Positions 12,190 through 20,515 of a stretch of 64,000 bases of DNA are shown piece by piece. A program made the position numbers and the translations under genes. Location of the stretch: positions 124,001 through 188,000 of the forward strand of contig NZ_JAKFYQ010000002.1 in the NCBI RefSeq assembly GCF_021533835.1, given 5' to 3'. Source of the stretch: Synechococcus sp. Nb3U1 (GTDB taxonomy: Bacteria; Cyanobacteriota; Cyanobacteriia; Thermostichales; Thermostichaceae). Position 1 is the first letter of the stretch, and every line of letters starts with the position of its first letter. The notes below the pieces were generated by a model, which worked only from the letters and a program-made list of their open reading frames with translations, did no database searches and had not been told where the DNA came from.

Positions 12190-14667
12190 CTACCCCAGTT
12201 GTGTGCGCAGCAGGTCTTCAGCATCCGCTGGTTGGAGAGGCTTGGCGAAGAAATAGCCCTGCCCATACTCGCAGTTCAGTAACTGAATCAAATGCAGTTG
12301 CTGTACGGTTTCGATCCCCTCGGCAACCACATCCATGCCCAAGCTATGAGCCAGGGTGATAATCATGCGAATGGTCTCGGCATTTTCGCCGTTCGGCCCC
12401 ATGCGGGCAATGAAGGAGCGATCGATTTTCAGGGTATCAATAGGATAATCATGCAAGCGGCTGAGGGAGGAGTAGCCGGTGCCAAAATCATCAATACTGA
12501 TTAGCACCCCCAATTTGCGCAGTTGAGCCAGTTGCTCCACAACCTCCCCATTCGATTCAGTGATCAGGCTTTCGGTAATTTCCAGCTTCAGGCAACTGGG
12601 ATCCAAATCAGCATTGGACAGGAGCCGGGCGATAAACTCCACCAGCCCGGGCTGAGAAAACTGCTTGCCCGAGAGGTTCACACTCAGGGTCACCGCCGCC
12701 CTTTTGCCCATTTGAGCTAGCCAGCGCACATTTTGCCAATAGGCTTCCTGAAGAATCCAGCGATCCAATTGCACAATTAGCCCCGTCTCTTCAGCAATGG
12801 GGATGAACTCAGCAGGAGAGATCAGCCCCCGTTCCGGGTGTTCCCAGCGCAGAAGGGCCTCAAACCCGACGATTCGACCGGTACTCAGTTGCACAATCGG
12901 CTGGTAATACACCCGAAATTGCTCCTGCCGGAGGGCTTGGCGAATCTGGGTTTCCATTTGCAGCCGTTGCAGAGCCCGTTGCCGCATCACCTCATCATAA
13001 ACAGCGTACTGAGCCTTACCGCGGGACTTTGCCCAAGACAAAGCTGTATCAGCATTGCGGATCAACTCCTCTGGCGTGATGATGTATCCACTCCCCTGAT
13101 GCAACTCATGCAAGTCTCGGCTGATGGCGATGCCGATGCTGGCGCTCAGATGCACTGGCACCGTTTGTCCCTTGATCTCGAAGGGGTTGGCGAAGGCGGC
13201 GAGCACCCGTTGGGCCACATGCAGAGCATCTTCGATCCCTTGCACGTACTCCAGCAAAATGGTGAATTCATCACCGCCAAAGCGGGCTAGGGTCTCGCTG
13301 CTGTCCAAACAACTGGATAGGCGCTGGCTGATCTCCACCAACAGGTAATCGCCAACACGGTGTCCAAGGCTATCGTTAATCACCTTGAAGCCATCCAAAT
13401 CCAAAAACAGCACGGCCAAGAGAGCCTGTTGCTCCTTCATCCGCTGCATCGCTTGCTTCAGCTTGGCCACAAAAGAGGGTTGGTTGGGCAGTTGCGTGAG
13501 GGGATCCAGAGAAGCAGCCCTACGCAATTGGGCTTCCAGTCGTTTGCGCTCACTGATCTCCTGCACGATTAAGCACAGCAAAGAGCGCTGGCCCAACACC
13601 AAATTGCTGGCGCTCACGGAGACATCCACCGTGGTACCATCCTGCCGCCAATACTGTTGCTCGCTGTTGCCCTCCAGGATGTGCAGGAGGTTGCCTTGAA
13701 TTTCGGTGTGACGGGCATCGTCTAAAGAGTCCAGATGGGGTACCACTAGATCTTTCAAAGTGAGGCTGGCAGCCTCTGCCCAGGAGTAGCCCAGTAGGGT
13801 TTCAAAAGCCGGGTTCACCTCCAAAATGCGCTGAGTTTCCGGATCCACTAACATGACCGTGGGCAAAGCTTTGGCCAAAATGCCCCGATAGCGCTCCTCT
13901 TGTTTCCGGATCCGCTGCAGATCCGCCTGACTCAGCCACCCAGCCGCCACCAACAGCATCCCCACCCCAGCCCAAACCCAGGGCAGATGAGGAAAAGGCC
14001 GTGAAGAGTTGAGTTGCACCACCCATTCGTTGATTTGAGCGGGATCCGCCTCATCCTCTGCGACAGGAACTCTCTGCAATAGAGCGAAGCTAGCCAGGGT
14101 TTGAGCATCCAGCCGTTCGACGAGAATCGGGATCCCGGCAACACTCTCGATGCCCTGCGCAAGATTCCGTTGGCTTAGGCGGGCCGTCCTATCCTGATGT
14201 TGGGGCTCCAGACTCCTGAGGGGGTAGATCTGCACCGCAGTAGCAACATCTGTGGGTTCTATCTCGCTTGATAAGGGATCCCGCGAAGCCAGGAGAGAGT
14301 CGATGATCTTTGTGGGCAAATCCTGGCTCGATGGGGAGGACTGTGCTTCCTGGGGAAAGACTCGGGGTATGGGCAGGGGATCCCGAACTTCTCCAGGACG
14401 GGTGGAGGTCGAAACGCTATCCGGGGGTTCAGGTAAGGACTCTACCGCTGCCTGCCAAAGGAACTGTTGCAAAGCTTGCCGAGCTTGGACTGTCTCCAGC
14501 CTATAGAGATATAGCTGGCTCAAGACGGCGAGGATCCCGTAGCCCAGCAGCCCCAAACCCCAACCAAGTGACGGCAGTGACACCCTGAAGAGGGAGGGAG
14601 ATTCTACACGAATGGTTTGGGCAAACTTGACAGAAGCCCCGAGGGCACAGAGCACACTCAACCTCAC
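12190..14667 (-). CDS. PAS-GGDEF-EAL cyclic-di-GMP signalling protein
   Basis: The 825-residue membrane protein has one helix near residues 35-56, a periplasmic sensor-like region, a second helix near 228-246, a PAS domain (~260-375), a GGDEF domain (~390-545) and an EAL domain (~560-810). RFGGDEFTILLE is intact, as are the EAL motif GFEALLRW, LKLEITESLI, IDDFGTGYSSL, LKIDRSFI and VAEGIET. Both diguanylate cyclase and phosphodiesterase activities are therefore possible. In cyanobacteria such proteins control phototaxis, pili and aggregation. The start is GTG at 14667. Confidence 0.92.
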   Translation of the reverse strand: MRLSVLCALGASVKFAQTIRVESPSLFRVSLPSLGWGLGLLGYGILAVLSQLYLYRLETVQARQALQQFLWQAAVESLPEPPDSVSTSTRPGEVRDPLPIPRVFPQEAQSSPSSQDLPTKIIDSLLASRDPLSSEIEPTDVATAVQIYPLRSLEPQHQDRTARLSQRNLAQGIESVAGIPILVERLDAQTLASFALLQRVPVAEDEADPAQINEWVVQLNSSRPFPHLPWVWAGVGMLLVAAGWLSQADLQRIRKQEERYRGILAKALPTVMLVDPETQRILEVNPAFETLLGYSWAEAASLTLKDLVVPHLDSLDDARHTEIQGNLLHILEGNSEQQYWRQDGTTVDVSVSASNLVLGQRSLLCLIVQEISERKRLEAQLRRAASLDPLTQLPNQPSFVAKLKQAMQRMKEQQALLAVLFLDLDGFKVINDSLGHRVGDYLLVEISQRLSSCLDSSETLARFGGDEFTILLEYVQGIEDALHVAQRVLAAFANPFEIKGQTVPVHLSASIGIAISRDLHELHQGSGYIITPEELIRNADTALSWAKSRGKAQYAVYDEVMRQRALQRLQMETQIRQALRQEQFRVYYQPIVQLSTGRIVGFEALLRWEHPERGLISPAEFIPIAEETGLIVQLDRWILQEAYWQNVRWLAQMGKRAAVTLSVNLSGKQFSQPGLVEFIARLLSNADLDPSCLKLEITESLITESNGEVVEQLAQLRKLGVLISIDDFGTGYSSLSRLHDYPIDTLKIDRSFIARMGPNGENAETIRMIITLAHSLGMDVVAEGIETVQQLHLIQLLNCEYGQGYFFAKPLQPADAEDLLRTQLG

Positions 14668-14788
14668 TGCTACCTGAAATGGCGGTAGATGAACTAGCCC
14701 ATGTTAAACAGACTACACAGGATCTGTACTGTCATCTTAGTGGAGCCTTCTGTAGAAACCGTAGCCTCTTTTGCTGAAAATCGGTAGT

Positions 14789-16177
14789 TTATGAGGATTT
14801 TTCTGGATTAAGTCGGGATTTTTGCCGGTTTTCTTCCAATTCCGCCAAGATCTGCTGATGCTGCTGCCGAGTAATGGGATAGAACCACACCAACAGGATC
14901 CCCCCTACCAAAGATACGGCTGGCAAAGGTCCAATGGCAAAGCGAATAGCCAGTAGGGCTGACTCCGGTTGAATGGGGGGAGCCTCTCCCGCCACATAGG
15001 AGATAAATCCGGCTAGATCCAACGCCTGCCCAACAAAAAACAGCCCCAAGGCTAGACCCACCTTTTGCAACAGCACCATAAAGGCATAAAAGATCCCCTC
15101 CCGGCGCTCTCCGGTTTCCAACTCATCCAGATCGATCACATCCGGGATCATCGACCAAGGCCCCAAGTAAGCAGTAGCCGATACCCCTACCCCGGCAATG
15201 AGGGCTAGCACAATCATGATCCCCGATTGTCCGGGTTGCAAAAAAAATAAGCCCGCTTGTGAAATCAACCAAAACCCCGCCCCAATCAAATACATGGTGC
15301 GTTTGCCCAGATGAGCACTCAGTTGCGTCCACATAAACAGGGTCAGTACCGCGATCCCCTGTACCGCCAACACTGTCAAGGAAATCCACACCTCCGGCAA
15401 GCCCATCCAAAAGACGATGAAGTAAGGAATGATCGTGGCAGTGAACTGAAAGGTTAGCCAAGAACAGAGATAAATCCCAATCACAAATAGATAAGGGCGA
15501 TTGCGAAAGGCCACCCGCATTTGTTGCGCCAAGGGCAAGGGATCCCGTTCCGACTGATACCGTTCCCGCACCCCCCAGAAGCAGAGCAGTAATGGCAGAG
15601 AGGAGATCAGCGCAAAGCAAGTTCCTGCCAGCATATAGCCTGCGCTGCGATCCGGTAGCAAATTATAGAGCAAAGGAAATAACACCACTGCCACAATGCT
15701 GCCGCCAATGGAGAAAGCAAAACGGAATTGATTGAGCTGCATGCGCTCGTCATAGTCTTGGGTCAGCTCCGGGGTGAGAGAGGCATAGGGAATATTGGCG
15801 GCAGAGTAAAAGGTGTTAAACAGCAACGACACCAGCAGGTAGTAGGCAAACAGCGCACCGATCCGGCCTGGAAACGGGATCCACCACTGGGCCAAAAAGG
15901 TGAGACCAAAAGGGATGGCCGCGAATAGTAACCAGGGGCGGCGGCGTCCCCAACGGGTGCGGGTACGGTCGCTGAGAATGCCGATCACCGGATCATTGAT
16001 GGCATCCCAGAAGCGGGTGATGGCGTAGATGCTTCCCGCTAAGCCCGCCGCCATGCCGACGGTATTGGTGAGAAAAGGCAACAGGAAAAAGACCAAAATG
16101 TTGGCCGTCATACCCGTGCCCAGATCTCCAACTCCATAGGCAAGCTTGGTCCACAGGCTGAGTCGTTGTTCGGTCAT
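14789..16177 (-). CDS. MFS sugar:cation symporter, GPH family
   Basis: The 462-residue protein with about 12 membrane helices matches the glycoside-pentoside-hexuronide:cation symporter family: KLAYGVGDLGTGMTANI at the N-terminus, then RFWDAINDPVIGILSDRT and RTRWGRRRPWLL, the typical family loop. The ATG at 16177 is preferred to an ATG at 16240 because family members begin about there. The substrate is unknown, probably a sugar or glycoside. Confidence 0.85.
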   Translation of the reverse strand: MTEQRLSLWTKLAYGVGDLGTGMTANILVFFLLPFLTNTVGMAAGLAGSIYAITRFWDAINDPVIGILSDRTRTRWGRRRPWLLFAAIPFGLTFLAQWWIPFPGRIGALFAYYLLVSLLFNTFYSAANIPYASLTPELTQDYDERMQLNQFRFAFSIGGSIVAVVLFPLLYNLLPDRSAGYMLAGTCFALISSLPLLLCFWGVRERYQSERDPLPLAQQMRVAFRNRPYLFVIGIYLCSWLTFQFTATIIPYFIVFWMGLPEVWISLTVLAVQGIAVLTLFMWTQLSAHLGKRTMYLIGAGFWLISQAGLFFLQPGQSGIMIVLALIAGVGVSATAYLGPWSMIPDVIDLDELETGERREGIFYAFMVLLQKVGLALGLFFVGQALDLAGFISYVAGEAPPIQPESALLAIRFAIGPLPAVSLVGGILLVWFYPITRQQHQQILAELEENRQKSRLNPEKSS

Positions 16178-16232
16178 AGTGCCCTGTTGCTGGAAGACCT
16201 GGCTCCCAGTGTAAGGGTAGACGGAAAAAATC

Positions 16233-16893
16233 ATGACCACTCTCTACCTCACAGAACCCGGAACGGTTGTTCAGTGCCGCAACCAGGCTCTGCTCATCTA
16301 CCTGGTATCAACTATGACCTGGATGAGAAGGGATCCTCACTGGAGCGAATGGCTCAACTTTTGGAAAACTTGATTGACAACGCCAAGGGATATATCACGT
16401 TTGCTGCCACCGGCGGACTCAAAGCCCAGACTATGATCATGGCCCTAGTGGGCAATCAACTGGGGATCCCAGTCTGCTACATCCATGAGCAATACAAATT
16501 TCTGCTCTATCTACCCTATCTTCAAGAAAGCACTCAACAGAGAATCATTCGAGCAAACCTACCTGATTCCGGCAGAGATCGATCAGATGTTATTCAAGTC
16601 CAAACCAGAAAAGCACATCATCGTCCCCTCACTTGGCCCAAAGTGGAAAAGTTGCTGGAGGACACCCCCTGGGTCGATCTCATCCGGTATGATTCCCGAG
16701 CCTAGGCTGCCTCCAAAAATGCCCTTAAGTCCTCCCCGCGAAAACACCTGACGGACGGCATATTTTGTGGATCCATCTCCACGAGAGCGAAGACACCCAT
16801 ATGGCGGTTATGGTGGAGACCACTGGGTATACTCCTGATCACCTGGAACAAGCTGCTGCTGAGTTGCGAGAACGTCTGGGTCGGCTGCTCTAA
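16233..16893 (+). pseudogene. Decayed CRISPR-related relic: cas1-like start joined to CARF-type gene
   Basis: The ATG at 16233 opens MTTLYLTEPGTVVQCRNQAL, which resembles the start of Cas1, for about 24 codons. The frame then changes near 16300 and reads YITFAATGGLKAQTMIMALV and GIPVCYIHEQYKFLLYLPYL, the pattern of a CARF (Rossmann) domain of APE2256/TIGR02619 CRISPR-associated proteins. A TAG at 16703-16705 interrupts it, and a second frame change near 16750 leads into HILWIHLHESED and VETTGYTPDHLEQAA before the final stop. No intact Cas protein or repeat array is visible nearby. The family names come from recognition of motifs, not a search. Confidence 0.62.
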
Positions 16894-16918
16894 AGAATCC
16901 TAGTCTTTGAGGTGCGCT

Positions 16919-17272
16919 ATGATTGCTGCCCACCGCTTTACCTCCTCAGATCTGGCTCTGATGCCGGACGATGGCAAACGCTACGAAGTCATTGATGGAG
17001 AGTTGTATGTGACCCATCAACCCAGTTGGCAACATCAGTATGCTGCCAGTCGTATCTATCGATTTTTGGATGAATGGAGCGATAACACTGGCCTAGGAAT
17101 GGCCAATATGGTACCGGAACTGATCTTTGCTGAAGATGATGATGTCGCTCCGGATGTGGTCTGGATTAGCCATAGCCGCTTCATTCAGGATGCCCTGACT
17201 GAATTGGTGGGTTCGTCTCAGGTTCCAGAAGCGCCTCAACTCCCTACCCAGCCGGATGAATGGTTTTTGTAA
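16919..17272 (+). CDS. Shortened Uma2-family protein
   Basis: The 117-residue protein starts like a normal Uma2 protein (FTSSDLALMPDDGKRYEVID, then PELIFAEDDDVAPDVVWIS). It then jumps to a short C-terminal-like tail, losing the middle of the family's usual ~190 residues. That missing stretch normally carries the second half of the predicted PD-(D/E)XK site. It lies just after the CRISPR-related relic, in a stretch of decaying genes, and is probably non-functional. An in-frame TTG at 16907 is an alternative start. Confidence 0.6.
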   Translation: MIAAHRFTSSDLALMPDDGKRYEVIDGELYVTHQPSWQHQYAASRIYRFLDEWSDNTGLGMANMVPELIFAEDDDVAPDVVWISHSRFIQDALTELVGSSQVPEAPQLPTQPDEWFL

Positions 17273-17520
17273 GCTTCAGGGATCAAGAGGAGAACAATTG
17301 CTGAATTCTCGGCTCCTTCGGAGGGGCATCCTCGGTTGTGTGGACTTCATCCCTTGCAAATTCAGGTGAGATCAATCCCACAGAAGTAACTGATACAACA
17401 CTTTCAGATGCTAAGACTCCTTATCGTACAACTGTTAGGGATCCGTTTGAGCTAGGCCCTCCCTCCTGCTGGGGGTAGGTAGCTCTGAGCGCCTCATTAA
17501 CTATTGGGAGTCAAGCCACC

Positions 17521-18903
17521 ATGACCGTTGCTCTCCATCGGCCTTCAACTTGGGCAGCCTTCCAAGCCGAATTGGAGGGGATCTCGATCATCACAGATCC
17601 GACCCAAGTGGCCAAACTCTCTCAAGACTGGAGCCTCTTCAGCCCGATCCTGACGGCTAAGCTCTCAGAGAAGCGGGCGGATTTGGTGGTTTGCCCCACC
17701 GATTTACAGCAAGTTTTACGAGTTGCCAAAGCTTGTGTCCAACATCGGATCCCGCTCACCCTGCGTGGCACTGGCACTGGTAATTATGGGCAGGCAGTTC
17801 CTCTCTATGGTGGCATTGTCTTGGATCTATCACGGATGCAGCGCCTGTGTTGGATCAAGGCCGGTTCTGCTCGTGTTGAGGCTGGAGTAAAACCCCTAAC
17901 CTTGGATAAAAAAGCAAAAGAAATGGGATGGGAAATGCGCATGATCCCTTCCACCTTCCGAACTGCAACCATGGGGGGGTTTGTGGCCGGGGGAAGCGGT
18001 GGTATTGGCGGCATTCAGTTCAGTGGTTTGTCAGCTCGGGGCAATGTCTTGGCAGTTCAAGTCGTCACTCTGGAAGATGAACCCCAGGTGGTGGAGCTAC
18101 GTGGCGATGCCTTGCGGGGTGTGAATCATGGCTGGGGCCTAAACGGCATTGTTACGGAAGTGGAGGTGCCTCTGGCTCCTGCTTATCCTTGGGCAGAGTG
18201 GATCGTTAGCTTCACGGATTTTGAGTCGTTGCTGCGCTTTTCCCAAGCGCTAGCGGATAGTGATGGCATCATCAAGAAATTGATCAGTGGTCATGCCTGG
18301 CCAATCCCAGGTTACTTCACTGCCCTGAAAAGCTCGATCCCCGAGGGATCCCATTGTGTGTTGATCCTGGTGGCAGAACCCTCCATCGAGCCGTTGCAAG
18401 AACTGGCGCAGGAATGGGGTGGCCGGGTGTGCTATTCCAAAACCCCTCAAGAAGCCAGCAAAGGGCTGACCCTAGCAGAATTTGCCATTAACCACACCAC
18501 GCTACATGCACGAGCCGCCAACCCTAATCTGACCTACATTGCTGCCCGCTTCCCTCGGGGTGAGGCCGGGATCCAGGCTGCCGTGCAGGTGCATGAGCAT
18601 TTTCAGCGACCCCAAGGATCGGAAGTCATGTTGCACCTCGAGTTTTTCCGGGGCAATGGCGCCGCTGGATTCTCGTCGTTGGAGTTGGTGGAGTTTTCCA
18701 CAGCGGAGCGACTAGAGGAGATCAAAGCCTATCAACGTACCCTTGGGATCACCTTCTCCAATAACCACAGCCACTACATTGAGGATGGGATGCGAGCTTC
18801 GGTGCAAGATGTGCTGGAGTTAAAGCATTGGATGGATCCCTATGGACTCATGAATCCGGGGAAAACCCGCTTGGTGGGATCTTGCTTGACCGATGGCGGA
18901 TGA
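17521..18903 (+). CDS. FAD-binding oxidoreductase (GlcD/FAD_binding_4 type)
   Basis: The 460-residue protein has a PCMH-type FAD-binding domain: ADLVVCPTDLQQVLRVAKAC, IPLTLRGTGTGNYGQAVPLY and GGFVAGGSGGIGGIQFSGL. The C-terminal half is a FAD-oxidase-type substrate domain ending in HWMDPYGLMNPGKTR. GGGAG lies upstream of the ATG. It resembles the glycolate/D-lactate oxidase superfamily, but the substrate is unknown. Confidence 0.85.
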   Translation: MTVALHRPSTWAAFQAELEGISIITDPTQVAKLSQDWSLFSPILTAKLSEKRADLVVCPTDLQQVLRVAKACVQHRIPLTLRGTGTGNYGQAVPLYGGIVLDLSRMQRLCWIKAGSARVEAGVKPLTLDKKAKEMGWEMRMIPSTFRTATMGGFVAGGSGGIGGIQFSGLSARGNVLAVQVVTLEDEPQVVELRGDALRGVNHGWGLNGIVTEVEVPLAPAYPWAEWIVSFTDFESLLRFSQALADSDGIIKKLISGHAWPIPGYFTALKSSIPEGSHCVLILVAEPSIEPLQELAQEWGGRVCYSKTPQEASKGLTLAEFAINHTTLHARAANPNLTYIAARFPRGEAGIQAAVQVHEHFQRPQGSEVMLHLEFFRGNGAAGFSSLELVEFSTAERLEEIKAYQRTLGITFSNNHSHYIEDGMRASVQDVLELKHWMDPYGLMNPGKTRLVGSCLTDGG

Positions 18904-18991
18904 ACCTGAACGTACGATTCTCGACCCAGGAACTTCGCTTCGACATTCTGCGCTATGGGGTATGACCACGGGTTGAGTCCTTGTCCTGAGC

Positions 18992-19597
18992 TTAGGCTCC
19001 CGGCAGGGGGAAGAAATGGTCAGTTGCTTTCACCCGTTGACACCAGGCCTGTAGGTTAGGGAAGGGCTTGAGGTCGAACCCGCCCTGCTCCGCCACATGG
19101 GTGTAGGTGAAAAGAGCCACATCGGCAATGGTGTACCGCTCGCCCACAAAAAAGGTTTTCCCTTCCAGATAGGCATCCATAATCTGTAGGGCATCGGTGC
19201 CGGACTTGAGATTTTGTTCGATCAAGCTGGCATTCGCTTCAGCTTTACCGGCACGCACCCAAAACCGGGTGATAGCAATGTAGCGAGCGATGCGGGTTTG
19301 CTCAAAGAACAGCCATTTCAAAATCTCAGCCCGTTCCAGCTGGGTTTGGCCATACATCGGGGTGCCTTCCGCCAAGTAAACCAGGATCGCGGCAGATTCT
19401 GCCAAAACAGTTCCGGTTTCCAGCTCCAAGGCCGGGATCTGTCCAAAGGGATTCTTGGCCAAGTACTCTGGTAGACGGTTCTCGCCTTCTCTGGAATTGA
19501 CGAGCACCACTTCATAAGGGATCCCCAATTGTTGGAGGAGCAGCTCCACTTTATAGTAATTCCCAGAAGTCGGGATCCCGTACAGTCGCAAAGTCAT
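18992..19597 (-). CDS. Glutathione S-transferase family protein
   Basis: The 201-residue protein has the thioredoxin-like N-terminal domain (LRLYGIPTSGNYYKVELLLQ, NPFGQIPALELETG, LAESAAILVYLAE) and the helical C-terminal GST domain (YTIADVALFTYTHVAEQGGF). The Ser in PTSGN is the likely glutathione-activating residue. Length matches the family; the substrate is unknown. Confidence 0.9.
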   Translation of the reverse strand: MTLRLYGIPTSGNYYKVELLLQQLGIPYEVVLVNSREGENRLPEYLAKNPFGQIPALELETGTVLAESAAILVYLAEGTPMYGQTQLERAEILKWLFFEQTRIARYIAITRFWVRAGKAEANASLIEQNLKSGTDALQIMDAYLEGKTFFVGERYTIADVALFTYTHVAEQGGFDLKPFPNLQAWCQRVKATDHFFPLPGA

Positions 19598-19882
19598 GAG
19601 TGCCTAAGCTGTGGCGATGGTCTGAGTTGGGCCCGGATCCCGCTTGGATCCCTTGTATTTGCAGTTTAGCCCTTCCTAGTCCTGTCTTGGCCTGAAGACT
19701 CATGCCTTTGAATCTCAATGGGCTCGGGGTGCTCCTGTGGGTTCAGCGGCTTTTCCCCATTGGAGCTGCCATCTGCAGTATGGGAAACTGCTGGAGCGGG
19801 CGATGTGACATTGCGCGAAGCCTGAGCCTCCTAACCCATGCCACTTCCTAAGATGAACGTAGCAATTGATCCGGTGTGGACC

Positions 19883-20515
19883 ATGAACGCCAAACTTCTG
19901 TTTCTGCCGCTGGCCCTGGGGTTGTCTATGGCTCCGGCCACAGCCGTTTTTCCACAAACTTTGGGCATCTATCCGTCTCTGCAGAGGCTACAAGTGGCCG
20001 ATACCCGTCAGTTGGATATCGGCACCCGCTCCATTATCGTCAACCCGGTGCCTTCCGACCTGAGTGTGAATCTGGAGCTGGATCGGCGCGGCTCCAACCC
20101 GATTTATCGTGCTGGCGAGCCGATTCGCATCAGCCTCAGCACTAACCGCGATGCCTACGTTTACTTGTTTAGCGTACAGGCGGATGGCCGCATTAACTTG
20201 ATCTTGCCCAACCGCCTATCGGGGGGGAATGAGTTTTTGCGGGCTGGAGAAGTGCGTAGCTTTCCGCCGCCCGGAGCCCGTTACCAGTTGACCATCGCTC
20301 CGCCTTTCGGCCAAGCACAAGTGTTGGCAGTAGCAGCCCCTCGCCCTCTCAATATCCAGGAAATTGCCTCCTTTGAGCGGGGTGGACAGTTTGCCGATGT
20401 GCGCGTCCAGGGATCCCAGTTTGCCGATGCGATTGCCCGTGCCATTGTCGTAGAAGAGATCCCCTCCAACCAGTGGGTGACCAGCACCAGGTTCTATCGG
20501 GTTGCTCCTCGCTAG
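19883..20515 (+). CDS. Secreted DUF4384 domain protein
   Basis: The 210-residue protein has a signal peptide (LLFLPLALGLSMAPATA) and a DUF4384 domain with YRAGEPIRISLSTNRDAYVY followed by LFSVQADGRINLILPN. DUF4384 is a beta-sandwich domain often attached to caspase-like or kinase proteins; one is also seen at the end of the caspase-like protein at 33756-35927. ATGs at 19838 and 19853 are in frame, but the start at 19883 gives the best signal peptide. Confidence 0.75.
   Translation: MNAKLLFLPLALGLSMAPATAVFPQTLGIYPSLQRLQVADTRQLDIGTRSIIVNPVPSDLSVNLELDRRGSNPIYRAGEPIRISLSTNRDAYVYLFSVQADGRINLILPNRLSGGNEFLRAGEVRSFPPPGARYQLTIAPPFGQAQVLAVAAPRPLNIQEIASFERGGQFADVRVQGSQFADAIARAIVVEEIPSNQWVTSTRFYRVAPR

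Follow-up and report, generated by a model that had tools for sequence, protein, structure and literature searches.

A probable deletion scar of a type III-D CRISPR-Cas locus in Synechococcus sp. Nb3U1

Introduction

Which system once stood at a cyanobacterial locus where the beginning of one CRISPR-associated gene runs directly into the middle of another, and how did it come to look this way? The question is raised by positions 16233 to 16893 of the window, the whole 64-kb stretch of Synechococcus sp. Nb3U1 DNA analysed here, in which the initial annotation had seen the collapsed remains of a CRISPR-related module. Comparison with relatives makes it very probable that deletions reduced a type III-D CRISPR-Cas locus to this scar and that what remains is inactive.

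A cas1 start joined to a CARF7 pseudogene

The short open reading frame at 16233 opens with MTTLYLTEPGTVVQCRNQALLI and contains about 22 codons of the 5' end of a cas1 gene (16233-16297, + strand), identified by blastn and residue identity and truncated at the first of two deletion junctions. Its residues are identical in 22 of 22 positions to the intact cas1 product of a genome of the same genus (G005) and in 19 of 22 to those of G001 and of G003, while at the DNA level blastn aligns the piece with the G005 gene (L061:9649-9583) at 89.6% identity over 67 nt (E 3e-18). The intact G005 and G003 genes are themselves called Cas1 by PADLOC at about 1e-80, with 1.3e-81 for the one of G005. Profile searches with the short piece matched no families because it is too short for profiles; its identity is settled by the match to intact cas1 genes, and the Cas1-like start proposed earlier therefore stands from its first codons onwards, as protein and as DNA. 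The Cas1 N-terminal sequence is present in the remnant, whereas the catalytic domain is absent, as homology stops at codon ~22.

In four relatives the homology limits coincide: cas1 homology stops and CARF7 homology begins at 16297/16298, so that cas1 codon ~22 meets CARF7 codon ~100. The junction is flush, with zero inserted bases, and the two genes are in different frames, which places on the map the frame change through which the Cas1-like start had been described as joined to a CARF gene. Under the G005 layout this deletion would have removed ~17.5 kb, a size estimated from that relative. At the other edge, the upstream homology on the MFS side extends in three relatives as far as about 16216-16220, whereas that to cas1 sets in at 16232-16233. 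The DNA directly upstream of the cas1 start has no homology to its G005 counterpart, so that a third breakpoint lies in between, at about 16220-16232.

Beyond the junction lies a CARF7 (APE2256/TIGR02619) pseudogene (16298-16893, + strand), recognised by PADLOC, TIGR02619 and DNA identity, of which the 3' two thirds, codons ~100-298, are kept. The second frame of the region, with FAATGGLKAQTM and GIPVCYIHEQYKF, closes at a TAG at 16703-16705, and a third frame finishes the gene at 16893. The assignment to a CARF-type gene is confirmed by profile searches with the middle frame, which matches TIGR02619 (8.6e-19, 67.9 bits against a curated cut-off of 37.45), PF09651 Cas_APE2256 (1.3e-9, 38.4 bits against a curated cut-off of 24.8) and the PADLOC CARF7 model PDLC01927 (5.5e-66, profile positions 101-234 of 297). 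The third-frame tail matches the same PADLOC model at positions 256-297 (7.7e-18), and since the two pieces are collinear on one profile a chance match can be set aside. The nearest solved structures, 8phb and 8phj, match in the CARF part only, and in a distant plasmid search the sole result, a CARF match from Nostoc, was weak.

The TAG and second frame change noted in the initial annotation can both be traced to single lesions on the + strand by alignment with intact copies. The stop replaces a TAC (Tyr) found in the intact copies L017 and L021, and a 1-nt deletion at 16740/16741 shifts the CARF7 frame. Together with the missing first ~100 codons, these leave the gene without a complete open reading frame. 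A lone single-nucleotide deletion could be a sequencing or assembly error, but the reading of all frame changes as errors in an intact gene is barely credible, as it would leave unexplained two multi-gene deletion junctions, the loss of the first ~100 CARF7 codons and an independent nonsense change, in an assembly of 4 contigs with 99.9% completeness.

A second junction between Uma2 and csx1

A shortened Uma2 gene had been described next to the CARF gene. The Uma2 gene is indeed incomplete, but it is not simply truncated: at 16919-17272 (+ strand) its 5' part continues without a frame change into csx1, of which the final ~33 codons are present, as judged from PF05685 and from csx1 DNA identity. 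The Uma2 part matches PF05685 (3.5e-11) over profile positions 6-98 of 172 and is followed by csx1 sequence, so that a full PD-(D/E)XK Uma2 domain is absent. Uma2 homology ends at 17179 and csx1 homology starts at 17176, and these limits place the second deletion junction at 17175/17176, where Uma2 codon ~88 meets the csx1 tail. Over the 147 nt from 17176 to 17322 the DNA shows 89% identity to the 3' end of csx1 and the sequence that follows it in G007, a relative from another genus (L065:834-980). The fused reading frame ends in TQPDEWFL, as does the G007 csx1, and 17273-17322 (+ strand) corresponds to non-coding DNA just past csx1 in G007, formerly 3' of that gene. Under the G007 layout about 1.5 kb would have been lost here, again an estimate from a relative.

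As the Uma2-csx1 frame is open, it could be asked whether part of the remnant still functions, for instance through a fusion protein that is made and has a role. This is very unlikely: the Uma2 domain has lost about half of its length, the csx1 share lies past the HEPN match in G007, and an in-frame join is expected in one case out of three by chance. That the fusion or another piece was retained for a new role after CRISPR loss is likewise extremely improbable.

The intact type III-D locus in relatives

On contig C10 of G005 the genes are arranged as csx3 (opposite strand), a gene for a 480-aa protein, cas1 and cas2, then an array of about 60 copies of a 37-nt repeat (GTTTCCGTCCCCTTGCGGGGAAAAGGTAGGGATCAAC), followed by cas6 (opposite strand), cas10, csx10, csm3-type genes, csx21, CARF7, Uma2 and csx1 (CARF-HEPN). 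The presence of csx10 assigns this locus to subtype III-D; cas10 and the csx10/csm3-type effector genes thus adjoin the intact homologues of the remnant, and the match of the intact CARF7 protein to the PADLOC CARF_RelE model is almost full-length (1.2e-57). The trio of CARF7, Uma2 and csx1 is also found in G007, where it is spread over contigs C199 and C298, which share an overlap of 162 nt (98.8% identity), and where cas1 comes after csx1. The genome comparison proposed with the initial annotation finds cas1 and CARF7 on one strand of a type III-D locus in G005, G003 and G001. The type III module suggested earlier, collapsed by deletion, can therefore be given a subtype and at least two deletions, of which the first had been recognised.

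The 480-aa protein (L061:9849-11291 in G005) has no Pfam match and adjoins cas1 in G005, G003 and G001. A homologue occurs in G004, and none was found in the genome of the window. G004 also carries a second CARF7 copy, divided over two frames (L020:8601-9562), about 32 kb from its intact copy.

The remnant would be explained by an ancestral III-D locus that ran from cas1 through csx1 on one strand, with cas6 reversed, as in G005. A large deletion would have brought codon ~22 of cas1 up against codon ~100 of CARF7, a second and smaller one would have fused Uma2 at codon ~88 with the end of csx1, and the nonsense change and the 1-nt deletion would have further broken the leftover CARF7 gene. Deletion within one locus as the cause of the scar, and the order and number of these events, are what we infer here.

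What is left in the genome

Type III-D effector genes (cas10, csx10/csm3-type) were not detected in the window's genome. Searches of this genome gave no match to the G005 Cas10, no RAMP protein and no second APE2256/CARF7 (PF09651) gene; two weak Cas10-palm matches belong to GGDEF proteins and were rejected. A search for the Csx1 HEPN domain found no match here and likewise none in any control genome, and so carries no weight. The III-D 37-nt repeat is absent from the whole genome at up to 3 mismatches, and in the 64-kb window array repeats of the relatives' type are limited to one chance-level partial match, which extends the earlier remark that no array lies nearby. An Rfam scan of 14000-20000 gave zero matches. 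With the effectors, the RAMP protein, the second CARF7 gene and the repeat all missing, the type III system appears to have been lost from this genome. As the remnant contains no intact immune gene and no type III effectors were detected in the genome, the remnant is most likely non-functional. The only cas1 gene found in the genome is a separate one of type I-E on another contig (G000:C1:1496211-1496834, L001), with cas-like genes beside it.

Timing and place of the decay

Differences between the remnant CARF7 and the intact G007 gene fall 36, 20 and 84 times on codon positions 1, 2 and 3. By this pattern the gene was under selection during most of its divergence, and the decay is fairly recent.

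Where the locus decayed is a separate question. An intact locus at this exact site was found in none of the genomes examined, and homologues of the flanking MFS and FAD-oxidase genes stand beside a III-D locus in none of them either; this and the breakpoint just upstream of cas1 count against the main reading. Conceivably, though doubtfully, the fragment had been broken before horizontal transfer or a rearrangement of the genome brought it here, in which case it would still be a dead III-D remnant. This would fit the separation of the flanking genes from the III-D locus in relatives, homology that begins exactly at the cas1 start codon, and CARF7-Uma2 DNA that is closer to G007 from another genus (80.6%) than to G005 from the same genus (78.0%), with the cas1 piece 89.6% identical to G005. 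On the other hand, genomes of this group are highly rearranged (PMC2612747), so that a loss of synteny is to be expected, and the two deletions fall within a single collinear locus. The FAD-linked oxidase gene of the window (17521-18903) has four more paralogues in this genome, and each relative searched has one or two matches.

Comparison with known systems

Decay of the CRISPR-IA locus in the Yellowstone strains Synechococcus OS-A and OS-B' was published in 2009, in a study that also lists the III-D repeat; in OS-A cas1 is a pseudogene split by a transposon, and in OS-B' cas2 is lost (PMC2612747). These loci share the cas1 family, the CARF7 gene and the strand order with the remnant, and the 19 of 22 identical cas1 residues were found in G001, whose coordinates fit OS-A and which is probably that strain. 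However, OS-A and OS-B' keep effector genes and arrays, whereas the remnant consists of fragments of four genes in a genome from which the repeat is gone. In G001 (L062:8891-10886) cas1 is split by an apparent transposase gene, consistent with the published OS-A pseudogene.

For the CARF7 gene the closest parallels are ring nucleases. SyCsm6 (Sll7062) of Synechocystis PCC 6803 is a CARF7-RelE fusion that acts as a ring nuclease in a III-D system (PMC9676260). It belongs, like the remnant, to the CARF7 family, and it is encoded with a III-D effector and a Csx1 (PMC9676260), but the remnant has lost the first ~100 codons, and with them the start of the CARF fold, and its reading frame is interrupted. 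The Crn1 ring nucleases are CARF7 members as well, and a limit of 250 aa has been applied for ring nucleases (PMC12409355); the intact relatives of the remnant share the CARF family but, at ~300 aa, exceed this limit (PMC12409355). By analogy with the family, the intact gene most likely bound cyclic tetra-adenylate (cA4) and perhaps degraded it.

Significance

This is an ordinary case of a decayed immune locus, and knowledge of CRISPR function is unchanged by it; what is new here is the subtype, together with the base-level position of each junction. Profile-called genes such as "Uma2" or "putative CRISPR-associated protein" should be read with caution at this site, where they are deletion scars. 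The locus provides a base-level record of a cyanobacterium losing its type III-D system but keeping a type I-E cas1.
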